Source: a bacterium (GTDB lineage Bacteria > Patescibacteriota > Minisyncoccia > UBA6257 > 2-01-FULL-56-20). Taken from it: 33,529 nucleotides of DNA. Shown one piece after another: positions 15,356-20,524 of the stretch. Below the pieces are notes generated by a model that was not told the DNA's origin, ran no database searches, and saw only the letters and a program-made list of their open reading frames with translations. The first letter of the stretch is position 1, and each line of letters opens with the position of its first letter. Location of the stretch: the NCBI GenBank assembly GCA_021777495.1, contig JAJYDL010000006.1, positions 1-33,529 on the forward strand, written 5' to 3'. The position numbers were made by a program, and so were the translations under genes.

Positions 15356-15431
15356 TGCCATTATTATAGTGTACCTGCACCAAACGCGCGAACGCTATCG
15401 TATATCCATCACCCTTGGTATAATGCAACTC

Positions 15432-15920
15432 ATGAAATCATCCATCACTAAATACATCATCGGAGGTGCGGTCGTGGCGGTCGTGGCGGGGTATGCGATC
15501 TTCAATGCAAACAGCGGTGCGAACGCCGGATCGCCGGGGCTTCCCTCTTCGCTCCCTCCCGAAACGCCCCCGGGCGGTTCCGCATCGTCGACCGGTGGTA
15601 CCGGTACCGCCACCGCCGCCGCCGGCACCAGTGCCGGACAATATAAAAACGGGCGATACACGGGGCCCGTCGTCGATGCGTTCTACGGCAAGGTCCAGGT
15701 CGCCGTGGCGATCAAGAACGGCGCGATCGCGAACGTCGCGTTCCCCGTATATCCCAACAATCCCGGGCATACGATCCAGGAAAGCATGACCGCGCTTCCC
15801 GCGCTTGCAAAGGAGGCGATCGCCGCGCAGAGTGCGAACGTGAACATCGTTTCCGGCGCCACGCAGACGAGCCAGGCGTTCCAGCAGTCCCTCGCTGCGG
15901 CGCTCACCCAGGCCCAGTAA
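15432..15920 (+). CDS. FMN-binding domain protein, membrane-anchored
   Basis: N-terminal TM, then GQYKNGRYTGPVVDAFYGKVQVAVAIKNGAIANVAFP...VNIVSGATQTSQAFQQSLAAAL; SGAT flavinylation-type motif. Confidence 0.87.
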   Translation: MKSSITKYIIGGAVVAVVAGYAIFNANSGANAGSPGLPSSLPPETPPGGSASSTGGTGTATAAAGTSAGQYKNGRYTGPVVDAFYGKVQVAVAIKNGAIANVAFPVYPNNPGHTIQESMTALPALAKEAIAAQSANVNIVSGATQTSQAFQQSLAAALTQAQ

Positions 15921-15934
15921 TCCCACGCAGCGCC

Positions 15935-16714
15935 ATGAAAGAGACCCGTATGCTCATGGGGATGCCGATCTCCGTGGAAATCGCGGATGCGCGCGGCGGC
16001 GGCACCGCCGAAGAGGCGCGGCGCGCGGCGGCGATAAAGGAAGCGTTCGACTACTTCATCCACGTCGACGAAACATTCAGCACCTACAAAGAGACAAGCG
16101 AGATAAGCGCCGTGAATGCCGGACGCCTCCCCCGGGAGGAATGGAGCCCGGAAATGGAAGTGGTGTTCGCGCTCTCGGAAGAGACGAAGCGCGCCACCGG
16201 CGGCTATTTCGATATCAAAAAACCCGATGGGACCTACGATCCCTCGGGGCTCGTGAAGGGCTGGGCTATCTGGAACGCGGCCCAGCTCATCATGAAAAAA
16301 GGGTTCTCCGATTTCTATGTGGATGCGGGAGGCGACATCCAGACGCATGGCGTGAACGGCGAAGGCGATCCGTGGTCGGTGGGCATCCGGAATCCTTGGA
16401 ACATCCACGAGAACGTCCAGGCGGTGCGCGCGGCGCATAACGAAGGGATCGCCACCTCCGGCACCTACATCCGCGGCACGCATATCTACGATCCCCACAC
16501 CGGCGCACCCGCCGATGCGATCGTATCGCTCACCGTCATCGGTCCGAACGTGTACGAGGCCGACCGCTTCGCCACCGCCGCATTCGCCATGGGCAAGGAC
16601 GCCCTCCGCTTCATCGGATCCCTTCCCGGCTTCGAAGGATACATGATCGATGCCGCCAAGACGGCGACCAAGACCGCCGGCTGGGATGCATATCGGATCG
16701 AAGATGCCGCGTAG
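15935..16714 (+). CDS. apbE: FAD:protein FMN transferase (ApbE-like)
   Basis: YDPSGLVKGWAIWNAAQLI, FYVDAGGDIQTHG, WSVGIRNPW, ATSGTYIRGTHIYDPHTGAPADAIVSLTVIGPNVYEADRFATAAFAMG. Confidence 0.92.
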   Translation: MKETRMLMGMPISVEIADARGGGTAEEARRAAAIKEAFDYFIHVDETFSTYKETSEISAVNAGRLPREEWSPEMEVVFALSEETKRATGGYFDIKKPDGTYDPSGLVKGWAIWNAAQLIMKKGFSDFYVDAGGDIQTHGVNGEGDPWSVGIRNPWNIHENVQAVRAAHNEGIATSGTYIRGTHIYDPHTGAPADAIVSLTVIGPNVYEADRFATAAFAMGKDALRFIGSLPGFEGYMIDAAKTATKTAGWDAYRIEDAA

Positions 16715-16739
16715 TAAAGATGAGCCCCATCCATACCCC

Positions 16740-18410
16740 ATGAACATCATTGACGGATTTCTCAATAAAATCACGATGTACCGCCTCGTGCTGTACTACC
16801 TTGCCGGGCTCGTCGCGATCGCCGCGATCTTCGGCGCACTCGGATGGCTCCCCTACGGCCCCACCGATCTCCTCTTTGAAGCGATATTCTTCCTCGTCGC
16901 CTGCTGGGCGGCGAACGGGATCCTCGCGGGGATCTTCGGGGCGCACCCGAACAGCGAATCGGCGTATATCACGGCCCTCATCCTCACGCTTATCATCTCC
17001 CCGCAGCCTCCGCTCAGCAGCAACTACATCATCTTCCTCATCGTGGCCGCCGGTACCGCCATGGGGGTCAAATACATCGTAGCGCTCAATAAGAAGCATA
17101 TTTTCAATCCCGCCGCCTTCGCGGTCGCCGCGAGCGCCCTCCTTTCGGGACCTGCGGCAAGCTGGTGGGTTGGCGGCAATATCCCCCTTATGGCGTTCGT
17201 GATTGCCGGCGGATTCCTCGTCGTCCGCAAGATCCAGCGGTTCGACCTCGCGCTCTCGTTCCTCGCCGCGGCATTCATCGGCGACATCCTCACCCATCCC
17301 GCAGACAACCCGCTCATCACGGTCGAAAAGGCGGTTCTCCACACCCCGCTCTTCTTCTTCGCGTCGATCATGATCACGGAACCCCTCACGACGCCTCCCA
17401 CGCGGCCCTGGCGCATCGAGTACGGCGCGCTCGTCGGCCTTCTCTTTTCCCCCGCGATCCATTTCGGCCCTTATTACTCAACGCCGGAGCTCGCCCTCCT
17501 TGCGGGCAACATATTCTCGTATGCCGTCAGCCCGAAAGGGACCCACGTACTCACCCTCAAGGGAGCGCGGGAGTTCGGCGAGAACGTCGCCGATTTTTCG
17601 TTTGCCACGGAAGGAAGCGCCCCCCTCGCCTTCGCACCGGGACAATATCTCGAATGGACGCTCGCCCACGAGCGGAACGACGGACGGGGAAACCGCCGGT
17701 ATTTCACGATCGCCTCGTCGCCCACCGAACGCGACGTGCATCTCGGCGTGAAGTTCTACGAACCCTCGAGTTCGTTCAAGAAGCGCCTCCGCGCGATGCG
17801 GCCGGGCGATACCATCGTCGCAGGACATCTTGCCGGCGATTTCACCCTTCCGCGCGATCCTTCGGAGAAGCTCGCGTTCGTGGCCGGCGGCATCGGCATC
17901 ACGCCGTTCCGCAGTATGGCGAAGTATATGACGGACACCTCGACGAACGGAGGGCCGAAGCGCGATGCGGTGCTCCTCTACTCGAACCGCACCCCCGAAG
18001 GCATCGCATATGCGGAGGTGTTCGACGAGGCCGCGGAAAAGATCGGCATGAGGACCGTCTACTCCTTCACGAGAAGCGGCGGCGCGGAGCGGGGGGCACG
18101 CAGAGAGGCGCACATCGGGGCGCGGAGCGGGGGGCACGCAGAGAGGCGCACATCGGGACGCGGACCGGGGGGCACGCAGAGAGGCGCGGACAAACCGGAA
18201 CGCACCGAGAGGCAGGAACCCGTATACGGCACCTTCCACGAAGGACGCATTACCGCGGACCTCATCCGCCAGGAGGTTCCCGACTGGAAGGAACGCACGT
18301 TCTACGTTTCGGGAACGCGCGCCATGACGACCGGCATCGAACGGATCCTCGCCGACATGGGAGTTTCCCGCGCCCGCATCAAGATCGACTTCTTCCCCGG
18401 ATTTGCATAG
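16740..18410 (+). CDS. RnfD/NqrB-like membrane domain fused to a ferredoxin-NAD(P)+ reductase-like FAD/NAD domain
   Basis: N-terminal multi-TM region with NKKHIFNPAAFAVA; C-terminal RRYFTIASSPTERDVHL, FVAGGIGITPFRSMAKYM, ERTFYVSGTRAMTTGIERIL. Confidence 0.85.
   Translation: MNIIDGFLNKITMYRLVLYYLAGLVAIAAIFGALGWLPYGPTDLLFEAIFFLVACWAANGILAGIFGAHPNSESAYITALILTLIISPQPPLSSNYIIFLIVAAGTAMGVKYIVALNKKHIFNPAAFAVAASALLSGPAASWWVGGNIPLMAFVIAGGFLVVRKIQRFDLALSFLAAAFIGDILTHPADNPLITVEKAVLHTPLFFFASIMITEPLTTPPTRPWRIEYGALVGLLFSPAIHFGPYYSTPELALLAGNIFSYAVSPKGTHVLTLKGAREFGENVADFSFATEGSAPLAFAPGQYLEWTLAHERNDGRGNRRYFTIASSPTERDVHLGVKFYEPSSSFKKRLRAMRPGDTIVAGHLAGDFTLPRDPSEKLAFVAGGIGITPFRSMAKYMTDTSTNGGPKRDAVLLYSNRTPEGIAYAEVFDEAAEKIGMRTVYSFTRSGGAERGARREAHIGARSGGHAERRTSGRGPGGTQRGADKPERTERQEPVYGTFHEGRITADLIRQEVPDWKERTFYVSGTRAMTTGIERILADMGVSRARIKIDFFPGFA
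18082..18188 (+). repeat. 38-bp tandem repeat, about 2.8 copies, inside the reductase gene
   Basis: Units starting at 18082, 18120 and 18158: GCGCGGAGCGGGGGGCACGCAGAGAGGCGCACATCGGG (with few substitutions). Confidence 0.92.
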
Positions 18411-18482: not shown

Positions 18483-20330
18483 TTACTTCCTGTCGATCTC
18501 CTTCTTGAGCTTCAGGAGATCGCTGTCGCTCATGTGCTCCACCTCGGAACGCACGGTATGCGCATCCTCCGCGGACTCCTGAGCATTGCGGACCTCCTGC
18601 ACGTCGGCCCGCACCTTCGCCTGATCCTTGCTCTCCGAGAGCGGGAGGGAAAGGTCGTCGAAGTCGTGGACCGGCACCACATCGCGCGGAGAATCGTAGT
18701 ACGCGATCCGGACCCTGTCCCCTTTTTCCGTCACGGGCAGCTTCGGAGAGTCGCCCACGCCGGCAGTGAAGAGGTGTGGTACTCCCGCAAGGTGGATATA
18801 GTAGAGGCTCCCGGTGCTCGTCGCATCGGCATTGATGCGATCGACCGTACCTTCGATGGTTGCGAGGCTGCGGTCCTTGCCAAGCGCCGTCCTGACGCCC
18901 TTGTCCGAGAGGAATTTCTCGTACTGCTCAAGGGCATCGTACTGCGTGGCCCCTACGGCGACCTCCTGGACGTTGTCGATCGGTACGATCGCCACGCCCT
19001 GGAATGCCGAGCTGTCGTTGAAGAGCGGCACCACGCACGCCATGGTGCCGTCCACGTTGTAGAGCTGCGGATCGGACCCATGGAGCTTCCTAAAGTTGAT
19101 CTTCGGATTGTTCTTCACGGCGTCGAGCACCGCGGAGTTCGTGGCGCCGCCGGGAACGGCATAGTACACCGACTTCCCCGTACGGGAATTCGTGTACATG
19201 ACCCCCACAAGGGAATCATCCTTGCCGTTCGAAGACGTGATGTCCGTCACCCACTCCGGCTGGCCGTCTTCGCCGTAGATGAGGGACGTATCGCCGGGTT
19301 CGACGATATTCTTCTTCCCCCACCAGCTGTTCAGCCATCCGTCGCGGTATTCGCCCCACCACGTGATATAGCTCTTCACGTAGCTATCCGGCACGACGCG
19401 GTCCACCCATTCCGGCACGGAGCCGATGGGATAGAACGTGCTCGCACCGGACGCGGGATCGACGATCGCGACGCCCTCCACCTTCTCCGCATCCCACCAG
19501 ATGGCGGGTTTGAAGACGGTGACGATCCACCATGCCTTTCCGTGTTCGTCCACCTCGAAGTTCGTGTCCTCGATGCCCTTGTCGAGATAGCCGTTCTCCC
19601 GGAGATGGCGCGTGAGGTCGTACCCGAAGTATGCAGACGGGGAATACCGCATCCCCTGCCCTTCGGGGAACTTCACGAGCCTCGGCTCTTCGTTCTGGTC
19701 CTCCGCGGAGATCATGACATATCCCGGCGAAGTGCCGTTCGCGCTCCAGGTCGAATATCCCCGGAACTCGAGAGGCGCCACATACCAGAGCTTTCCGTTC
19801 ACGAGCTGAAGCGTCACTTCCCCGTTCTCGACCTCGAACTGGCTTCCGATCGTCCCGTCCTGACCGATCGCTTTTTGCGCAAGATACAGCGCATTATCTT
19901 CGTTGGCCATGCGCATGTGATCGGGATTCTTCGGCTGGATGTCCTGCGTCCAGGTCCTTGTTTCCACCGGACCGATCATCCCTTGATACTCGGAGGTGTT
20001 CATGAACTCCGACCCGAAGAACATGCTCCCTGCGTAGATCACGAGAAGGAACGCGACCGGCACCCACGCAACGAAATAGCGCCAGATTTCTCCATCCTCA
20101 TCCCCGAGCAGGGATATGAGTATCCCCGCGATCACCCAGAGGATCAGCACATAGAACCCCATCACCCCGAAAAGGGGCCATACGGTCGACGGCGTCCCCC
20201 AGTACAGGAACCACCAGAGGATAAGGAACGACGATGCTCCCTGCACGATCGCCGCAATCGGTTTCCGGCAGATCGCAAGCGGTGCGATCCCTATCGCGGC
20301 GCATACAAGCGCCACCAATGAATAGTACAT
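18483..20330 (-). CDS. Large membrane-anchored extracytosolic protein of unknown function
   Basis: N-terminal TM segments (MYYSLVALVCAAIGIAPLAICRK..., FLILWWFLYWG, VLILWVIAGILISLLG, VAFLLVIYAGSMFF) then a long soluble domain. AGGAGG Shine-Dalgarno upstream of ATG at 20330. Confidence 0.8.
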   Translation of the reverse strand: MYYSLVALVCAAIGIAPLAICRKPIAAIVQGASSFLILWWFLYWGTPSTVWPLFGVMGFYVLILWVIAGILISLLGDEDGEIWRYFVAWVPVAFLLVIYAGSMFFGSEFMNTSEYQGMIGPVETRTWTQDIQPKNPDHMRMANEDNALYLAQKAIGQDGTIGSQFEVENGEVTLQLVNGKLWYVAPLEFRGYSTWSANGTSPGYVMISAEDQNEEPRLVKFPEGQGMRYSPSAYFGYDLTRHLRENGYLDKGIEDTNFEVDEHGKAWWIVTVFKPAIWWDAEKVEGVAIVDPASGASTFYPIGSVPEWVDRVVPDSYVKSYITWWGEYRDGWLNSWWGKKNIVEPGDTSLIYGEDGQPEWVTDITSSNGKDDSLVGVMYTNSRTGKSVYYAVPGGATNSAVLDAVKNNPKINFRKLHGSDPQLYNVDGTMACVVPLFNDSSAFQGVAIVPIDNVQEVAVGATQYDALEQYEKFLSDKGVRTALGKDRSLATIEGTVDRINADATSTGSLYYIHLAGVPHLFTAGVGDSPKLPVTEKGDRVRIAYYDSPRDVVPVHDFDDLSLPLSESKDQAKVRADVQEVRNAQESAEDAHTVRSEVEHMSDSDLLKLKKEIDRK

Positions 20331-20524
20331 ACTGCCTCCTTGCCCACGATAGGTGCGCGTTCTTCCGCGCATCGCTTCTCAAGGGACTGGGGAATATTAT
20401 AATATATATTATTGATAATGTCCATTATCCCTTTCCGCTTCCTTTCTTATAACTTCCCCGCATCATCGCCGCATCCGATATCGCCATACCGTGCGGATGG
20501 TTATATAATGGAATAAATTTCCCG

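Follow-up and report, generated by a model that had tools for sequence, protein, structure and literature searches.

Three consecutive genes of a CPR bacterium raise the question of whether so small a set could suffice to pass electrons from NAD(P)H in the cytosol to the outside of the cell. The genes lie in a stretch of 33,529 nucleotides that was analysed as a whole (the window) and that forms contig C12 of a metagenome-assembled genome (MAG) of 40 contigs and 700,290 bases, 75.6% complete. The host is a CPR/Patescibacteria bacterium of the Paceibacteria type, and its nearest relatives with a name are MAGs of Candidatus Parcubacteria. The initial annotation proposed a three-gene path from NAD(P)H to the outside, and this is still the best reading, given that RnfA/E-NqrD/E (PF02508) was found neither in the genome nor in 60 relatives and that the FAD, NAD, SGAT and ApbE residues are conserved. 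We consider it quite likely that the cluster is a CPR module of the NQR/RNF-like type for extracytosolic electron transfer, in which flavins alone would conduct electrons from NAD(P)H outward.

Organization of the gene cluster

The three genes occupy positions 15432-18410 of the + strand and encode, in this order, an FMN_bind protein, an ApbE protein and a fusion of an NqrB/RnfD-like membrane domain with an FNR-type reductase. The gaps between them are 14 nt (FMN_bind/ApbE) and 25 nt (ApbE/fused gene). On one side the cluster is flanked by a divergent gene for an M13-type peptidase, an identity read from its sequence alone, and on the other by a convergent gene for a membrane protein of 629 aa (18483-20372, - strand), which stays beside the cluster in close relatives. 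A promoter scan gave no match. The arrangement is far beyond chance, because the order recurs in approximately 50 contigs and the families co-occur among 61 related genomes.

The first gene (15432-15920, + strand; ATG at 15432, stop at 15920) encodes 162 aa, consisting of an N-terminal transmembrane anchor (MKSSITKYIIGGAVVAVVAGYAIF), a low-complexity Pro/Ser/Thr/Ala linker and a C-terminal FMN_bind domain of the NqrC/RnfG-like type (Pfam FMN_bind, PF04205, E = 1.8e-7). A profile of its homologues matches PDB 8p2a, a solved single FMN-binding domain, with E = 6e-24. The flavinylation motif SGAT lies at 15852-15863 (+), with the predicted FMN-carrying Thr encoded at 15861-15863, and is kept in most of 70 FMN_bind homologues. 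The start codon at 15432 is also kept in the related locus L008, and an in-frame ATG lies further upstream at 15423.

The second gene (15935-16714, + strand) encodes a compact ApbE FAD:protein FMN transferase of 259 aa (Pfam E = 2.8e-40) that has neither a signal peptide nor a transmembrane segment. The third gene has its ATG at 16740, a start shared among 81 homologues (MxxxIDxFLNKITMY), and its stop at 18410. The ORF finder called longer starts at 15369 and 16650; these have less in their favour, as the homologues start with MKSSITKY or MxxxIDxFLNKITMY.

The fused membrane protein and reductase

Residues 1-263 of the fused protein (16740-17528, + strand) form the NqrB/RnfD-like membrane domain, and the FNR/NqrF-type FAD and NAD(P)H reductase domain follows from about residue 268 (17541-18410, + strand). 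Pfam finds NQR2_RnfD_RnfE (PF03116; E = 9.3e-9, 35.5 bits) and NAD_binding_1 (PF00175; E = 6.6e-10, 40 bits), both with scores above the cut-off, and no 2Fe-2S family in the NqrF-like part. The AlphaFold model, based on 81 homologues, has a pLDDT of 90.4; it is all-helical to approximately residue 263 and of mixed alpha/beta structure thereafter. Its Foldseek matches are flavohemoglobin, FNR, NqrF and the Streptococcus NADPH oxidase. By sequence, the C-terminal part resembles the FAD domains of NqrF (7qty) with E = 1.7e-19. Within it, the FAD-binding motif RRYFTIASSP of the RxYS/T type (17694-17723, +) includes R319 and R320, and the NAD(P)-binding motif GGIGITPF (17886-17909, +) includes G383, G384, G386 and P389; all these residues are invariant across the 81 homologues.

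The initial annotation described three consecutive genes on one strand, among them an SGAT-bearing protein and an ApbE, with the membrane and NAD(P)H-reductase parts apparently collapsed into one polypeptide. The coordinates and Pfam families agree with the former, and PF03116 together with PF00175, AlphaFold and Foldseek bears out the latter. It also proposed modelling the fused protein, and it would have been contradicted by a lack of conserved flavin and FAD/NAD sites in alignments; the model matches the fold of FNR/NqrF, and RRYFTIASSP, GGIGITPF, SGAT and the catalytic residues of ApbE are conserved over 50-81 homologues.

The membrane domain matches RnfD (PDB 8ahx_D) with E = 2e-5 and E. 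coli RsxD with an hhalign probability of 93.8. A point against the proposed path is that this sequence match to RnfD/RsxD is confined to the second half of the membrane domain or thereabouts. The spacing from FNPA to GGFLVVRK is 35 aa in the window protein and approximately 108 aa in E. coli RsxD, where the loop between them holds the motif SQAT, whose Thr is known to carry FMN. A loosely similar flavinylation motif occurs anywhere in the membrane domain in only 2 of the 81 homologues. The NqrB/RnfD-type FMN-Thr site is not conserved in this domain, which agrees with Huang et al. 2024 (PMC10979944), who modelled the NQR/RNF-like complex and report that its subunits do not keep the flavinylation site of NqrB/RnfD.

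Inside the coding sequence of the NAD domain, at 18081-18187 (+), TRF finds a tandem repeat of 38 bp in 2.8 copies that match at 97%. It encodes an Arg/Gly-rich, disordered surface loop with pLDDT below 50 at residues 465-478. The loop is 56 aa long in the window protein and 11 aa on average in homologues; close relatives have long but unlike loops of 27-38 aa, and others have approximately 10 aa. We rejected the idea of a dispersed element, as the repeat occurs at a single place in the genome.

Proposed electron path

Our proposal starts from features that the sequences show, namely their order and families, the cofactor motifs, the orientation bias of the anchor and the absence of other Rnf/Nqr subunits. 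In the path that we infer, NAD(P)H would be the donor, oxidised via FAD by the cytosolic FNR-type domain, and the fused NqrB/RnfD-like domain would carry the electrons outward across the membrane, probably via a non-covalently bound flavin. The neighbouring ApbE is predicted to load FMN covalently onto the Thr of SGAT in the membrane-anchored FMN_bind protein. This protein would then take electrons at the outer face and hand them to an acceptor; candidates for this role include metal ions, a copper protein and an oxidant. No acceptor gene is encoded near the window cluster, which counts against the path.

The same reconstruction has been proposed before. According to Meheust et al. 2021 (PMC8238504), 127 "NQR/RNF-like" clusters, chiefly in Actinobacteria and CPR, are defined by the fusion of PF03116 with PF00175, and the authors propose a one-way flow in which NAD(P)H gives electrons to an extracytosolic FMN_bind protein. 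The fusion is therefore not new, being the published hallmark of a system already reported from CPR, and the path put forward in the initial annotation matches that proposal. The window cluster shares with this system the fusion, the FMN_bind partner, an ApbE in the cluster, the CPR host group and a membrane subunit without the FMN-Thr site, and we see no architectural difference. We found no biochemistry of an NQR/RNF-like system in CPR in the literature searched.

Search for other Rnf and Nqr subunits

The membrane domain and the FMN_bind protein are homologous to RnfD/NqrB and RnfG/NqrC, so the cluster genes might instead belong to a complete Rnf or Nqr complex, as subunits that have strayed from it or are shared with it. 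A full operon elsewhere in the genome would favour this explanation, and the initial annotation accordingly suggested looking for further Rnf/Nqr subunits. RnfA/E-NqrD/E (PF02508) was found in none of 61 genomes, comprising the window genome and 60 relatives; 51 of the 61 have a completeness of 90% or more and a contamination of 5% or less. Controls matched in 4 of 14. Absences in the window MAG are weak evidence alone because the MAG is incomplete, and the 60 relatives give stronger evidence. Since RnfA/E-NqrD/E was found neither in the genome nor in its relatives, the genes do not appear to be strays; the missing FMN-Thr loop of RsxD in the membrane domain also argues against this explanation, which we regard as extremely improbable.

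RNF (RsxABCDGE) and Na+-NQR share with the window cluster the RnfD/NqrB, RnfG/NqrC and NqrF-like domains and the ApbE-dependent FMN. The window cluster differs from them in that RnfA/E-NqrD/E is absent, the NqrB and NqrF parts are fused, the membrane domain is without the covalent FMN loop, the proposed flow is one-way and no 2Fe-2S family is matched.

ApbE and the order of flavinylation

The AlphaFold model of the window ApbE (pLDDT 95.3) has as its best Foldseek match Listeria FmnB (7esb; E = 8.7e-19, TMq 0.83). The invariant residues are K108-G109, G133-D134, H183, D210 and T214. Compared with E. coli ApbE, approximately 50 residues are missing from the middle of the protein, and the KG, GGD, H183, D210 and T214 are kept. 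The window protein thus has the ApbE fold and the catalytic and Mg residues.

By hydropathy and inspection, none of the ApbEs in 55 complete cluster copies has an N-terminal export signal. These 55 begin directly at the core strand, with the consensus MKxTRxIMGMPITVEI, from which the sequences of three divergent copies depart. We rejected the possibility of an overlooked signal, as the few N-terminal extensions are short and non-hydrophobic and the hydrophobic windows correspond to the core strand IMGMPITVEI. The ApbE of a Mesorhizobium plasmid cluster (L119) is also without an export signal (MRDTRILMGMPITV), as is that of a cluster of actinobacterial type whose record names a Pseudomonas plasmid (L120).

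The usual scheme of extracytosolic flavinylation has no place for an ApbE without a signal, and this is a further point against the proposed path. It might seem that the FMN domain lies on the cytosolic side, where a cytosolic ApbE could load it, and that no electrons leave the cell. We consider this unlikely. The N-terminal side of the anchor is the more positive in 60 of 71 homologues, so by the positive-inside rule an N-in/C-out orientation, with the FMN domain outside, is predicted. The low-complexity linker after the anchor also argues against a cytosolic FMN domain, as does the published model of a homologous complex, which places an anchored FMN subunit on the extracytosolic side of the membrane (PMC10979944).

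Export signals are typical of the ApbE family but are neither universal nor defining. An ApbE that has been studied genetically requires export for its function, and the known signal-less ApbEs have cytosolic targets (PMC12052999). The cytosolic ApbE of Klebsiella pneumoniae, which serves a soluble fumarate reductase, also has no signal peptide (PMC12052999); its target is cytosolic, whereas that of the window ApbE is membrane-anchored and is predicted to face outward. 

The extracellular electron transfer system FmnB/PplA of Listeria shares with the window an ApbE-type transferase and a surface FMN-domain protein. The NADH-side membrane protein of the Listeria system belongs to another family than the fused protein of the window. 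FmnB is described as extracytosolic (PMC9973259), in contrast to the window ApbE with its missing export signal.

The initial annotation held that ApbE flavinylates SGAT. The conservation of the motif and of the ApbE residues agrees with this, but attachment outside the cell is doubtful because the window ApbE has no export signal. Flavinylation might precede Sec export, ApbE might have an export route that is not yet recognised, or the topology might be unlike the prediction; we tentatively favour the first. TatC was found in none of the 61 related genomes (a control search matched in 11 of 14), and we therefore rejected a Tat route for an FMN protein already loaded in the CPR cytosol, although the actinobacterial-type homologue L120 carries a twin-arginine-like lipoprotein signal. 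Given a signal-less ApbE, an FMN domain with a predicted outside location and the missing TatC, flavinylation may precede export by Sec, and the window FMN protein is probably flavinylated in the cytosol before or during this export. The broader idea that, in NQR/RNF-like systems, a signal-less ApbE loads the FMN subunit inside and Sec then threads the flavinylated chain outward is tentative, and we judge its chances to be slightly less than even.

The available parts of Meheust et al. 2021 and Huang et al. 2024 contain no mention of signal-less ApbEs in NQR/RNF-like clusters. One analysis in the former kept only genes with a predicted signal (PMC8238504), and signal-less ApbEs may be visible in its figures or supplements.

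Possible electron acceptors

The genes near the fused gene in relatives offer hints about the acceptor. MsrA/MsrB lie within a few genes of it at L012, L034, L045, L052, L064, L065, L069, L074 and L078. Upstream of the cluster at L015, L022, L026, L052, L065, L074 and others is an ECF sigma factor with an anti-sigma-like membrane protein of short N-terminus, for which a Pfam search gave no match.

In L034, L040, L049 and L064, a membrane-anchored cupredoxin adjoins the fused gene and FMN_bind/ApbE are absent within three genes. Pfam scores for these cupredoxins are weak to moderate (weak for L049), and the four loci need at least two origins on the tree. Both cupredoxin and FMN_bind/ApbE are present in L037 and L054. 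A quick-HMM label at L045 was rejected, as Pfam identifies the protein as FKBP; some other "FMN" and "cupredoxin" labels of this kind were matches to transmembrane segments only. Cupredoxin neighbours of the fused gene are not mentioned in the available parts of Meheust et al. 2021 and Huang et al. 2024.

The module could thus be a metal or oxidative-stress reductase, as opposed to a respiratory outlet; its electrons would reduce Cu(II)/Fe(III), a cupredoxin or some oxidant and so help the cell to handle metals or oxidative damage. This specifies an acceptor and is compatible with electron export. In addition to the cupredoxins that stand in place of FMN_bind/ApbE, it is favoured by MsrA (nine loci) and MsrB (six), ECF sigma factors, SOD, Nramp and membrane cupredoxins near the fused gene in relatives, by the VIT and cytochrome b genes adjoining the Mesorhizobium cluster, and by VIT1 in six published clusters (PMC8238504). 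However, no such gene adjoins the window cluster, Cupredoxin_1 was not found in the window genome (75.6% complete), and neighbours vary widely among loci. We therefore hold this role to be possible, with the balance leaning somewhat against it. For some CPR, the window cluster not included, there are hints of copper proteins as partner or acceptor. A search for a terminal oxidase (COX1) or a cupredoxin found neither in the incomplete window MAG. The window genome has one VIT1-like gene, on a different contig and not adjacent to the cluster.

Distribution and related copies

Among the 61 related genomes, PF03116 occurs in 18, ApbE in 17 and FMN_bind in 16, and 15 genomes have both ApbE and PF03116. 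Each of the eight genomes of the window's genus carries all three families. The best 80 of 103 relatives from a collection scan were kept, nearly all of them titled as CPR or from MAGs without a lineage name. Most loci have the order FMN-ApbE-fused or FMN-fused. Some relatives have a fused gene with no FMN_bind at a distance of three genes or less, which is a point against the proposed path.

A second FMN_bind and fused NqrB-F pair, without ApbE, lies on contig C25 of the window genome (L106:5694-8187). In the tree, a quick search with SH-aLRT support only, this copy falls in a different, mostly ApbE-less branch, so the pair is not a recent duplicate. The single ApbE found in the genome presumably serves both copies. 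The L106 pair is followed by a small transmembrane protein with an Ala/Ser/Pro-rich tail, which adjoins this paralogue in five genomes of the genus (106-124 aa); for the copy at L106, a Pfam search gave no match.

The full three-gene cluster on plasmid pB2-1-1 of Mesorhizobium sp. B2-1-1 (L119) is nested within the CPR tree (SH-aLRT 99), which suggests transfer between CPR and Alphaproteobacteria; genes for VIT, cytochrome b and PepSY proteins lie around it. The cluster L120 is from a record of a Pseudomonas sp. DR48 plasmid (NZ_CP081947) whose gene content looks actinobacterial, and the record may be a misassigned contig.

Implications

The signal-less ApbE poses the question of whether covalent flavin is added before export and whether Sec is able to carry a flavinylated chain. 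If this is the case, the accepted sequence of extracytosolic flavinylation would be reversed, in a lineage without detectable Tat, and loading in the cytosol would spare the cell both the export of FAD and the placing of ApbE outside. CPR bacteria are mostly without respiratory chains, and for this reason a two-protein electron outlet for NAD(P)H would bear on their redox balance and on how they deal with oxidants and metals.
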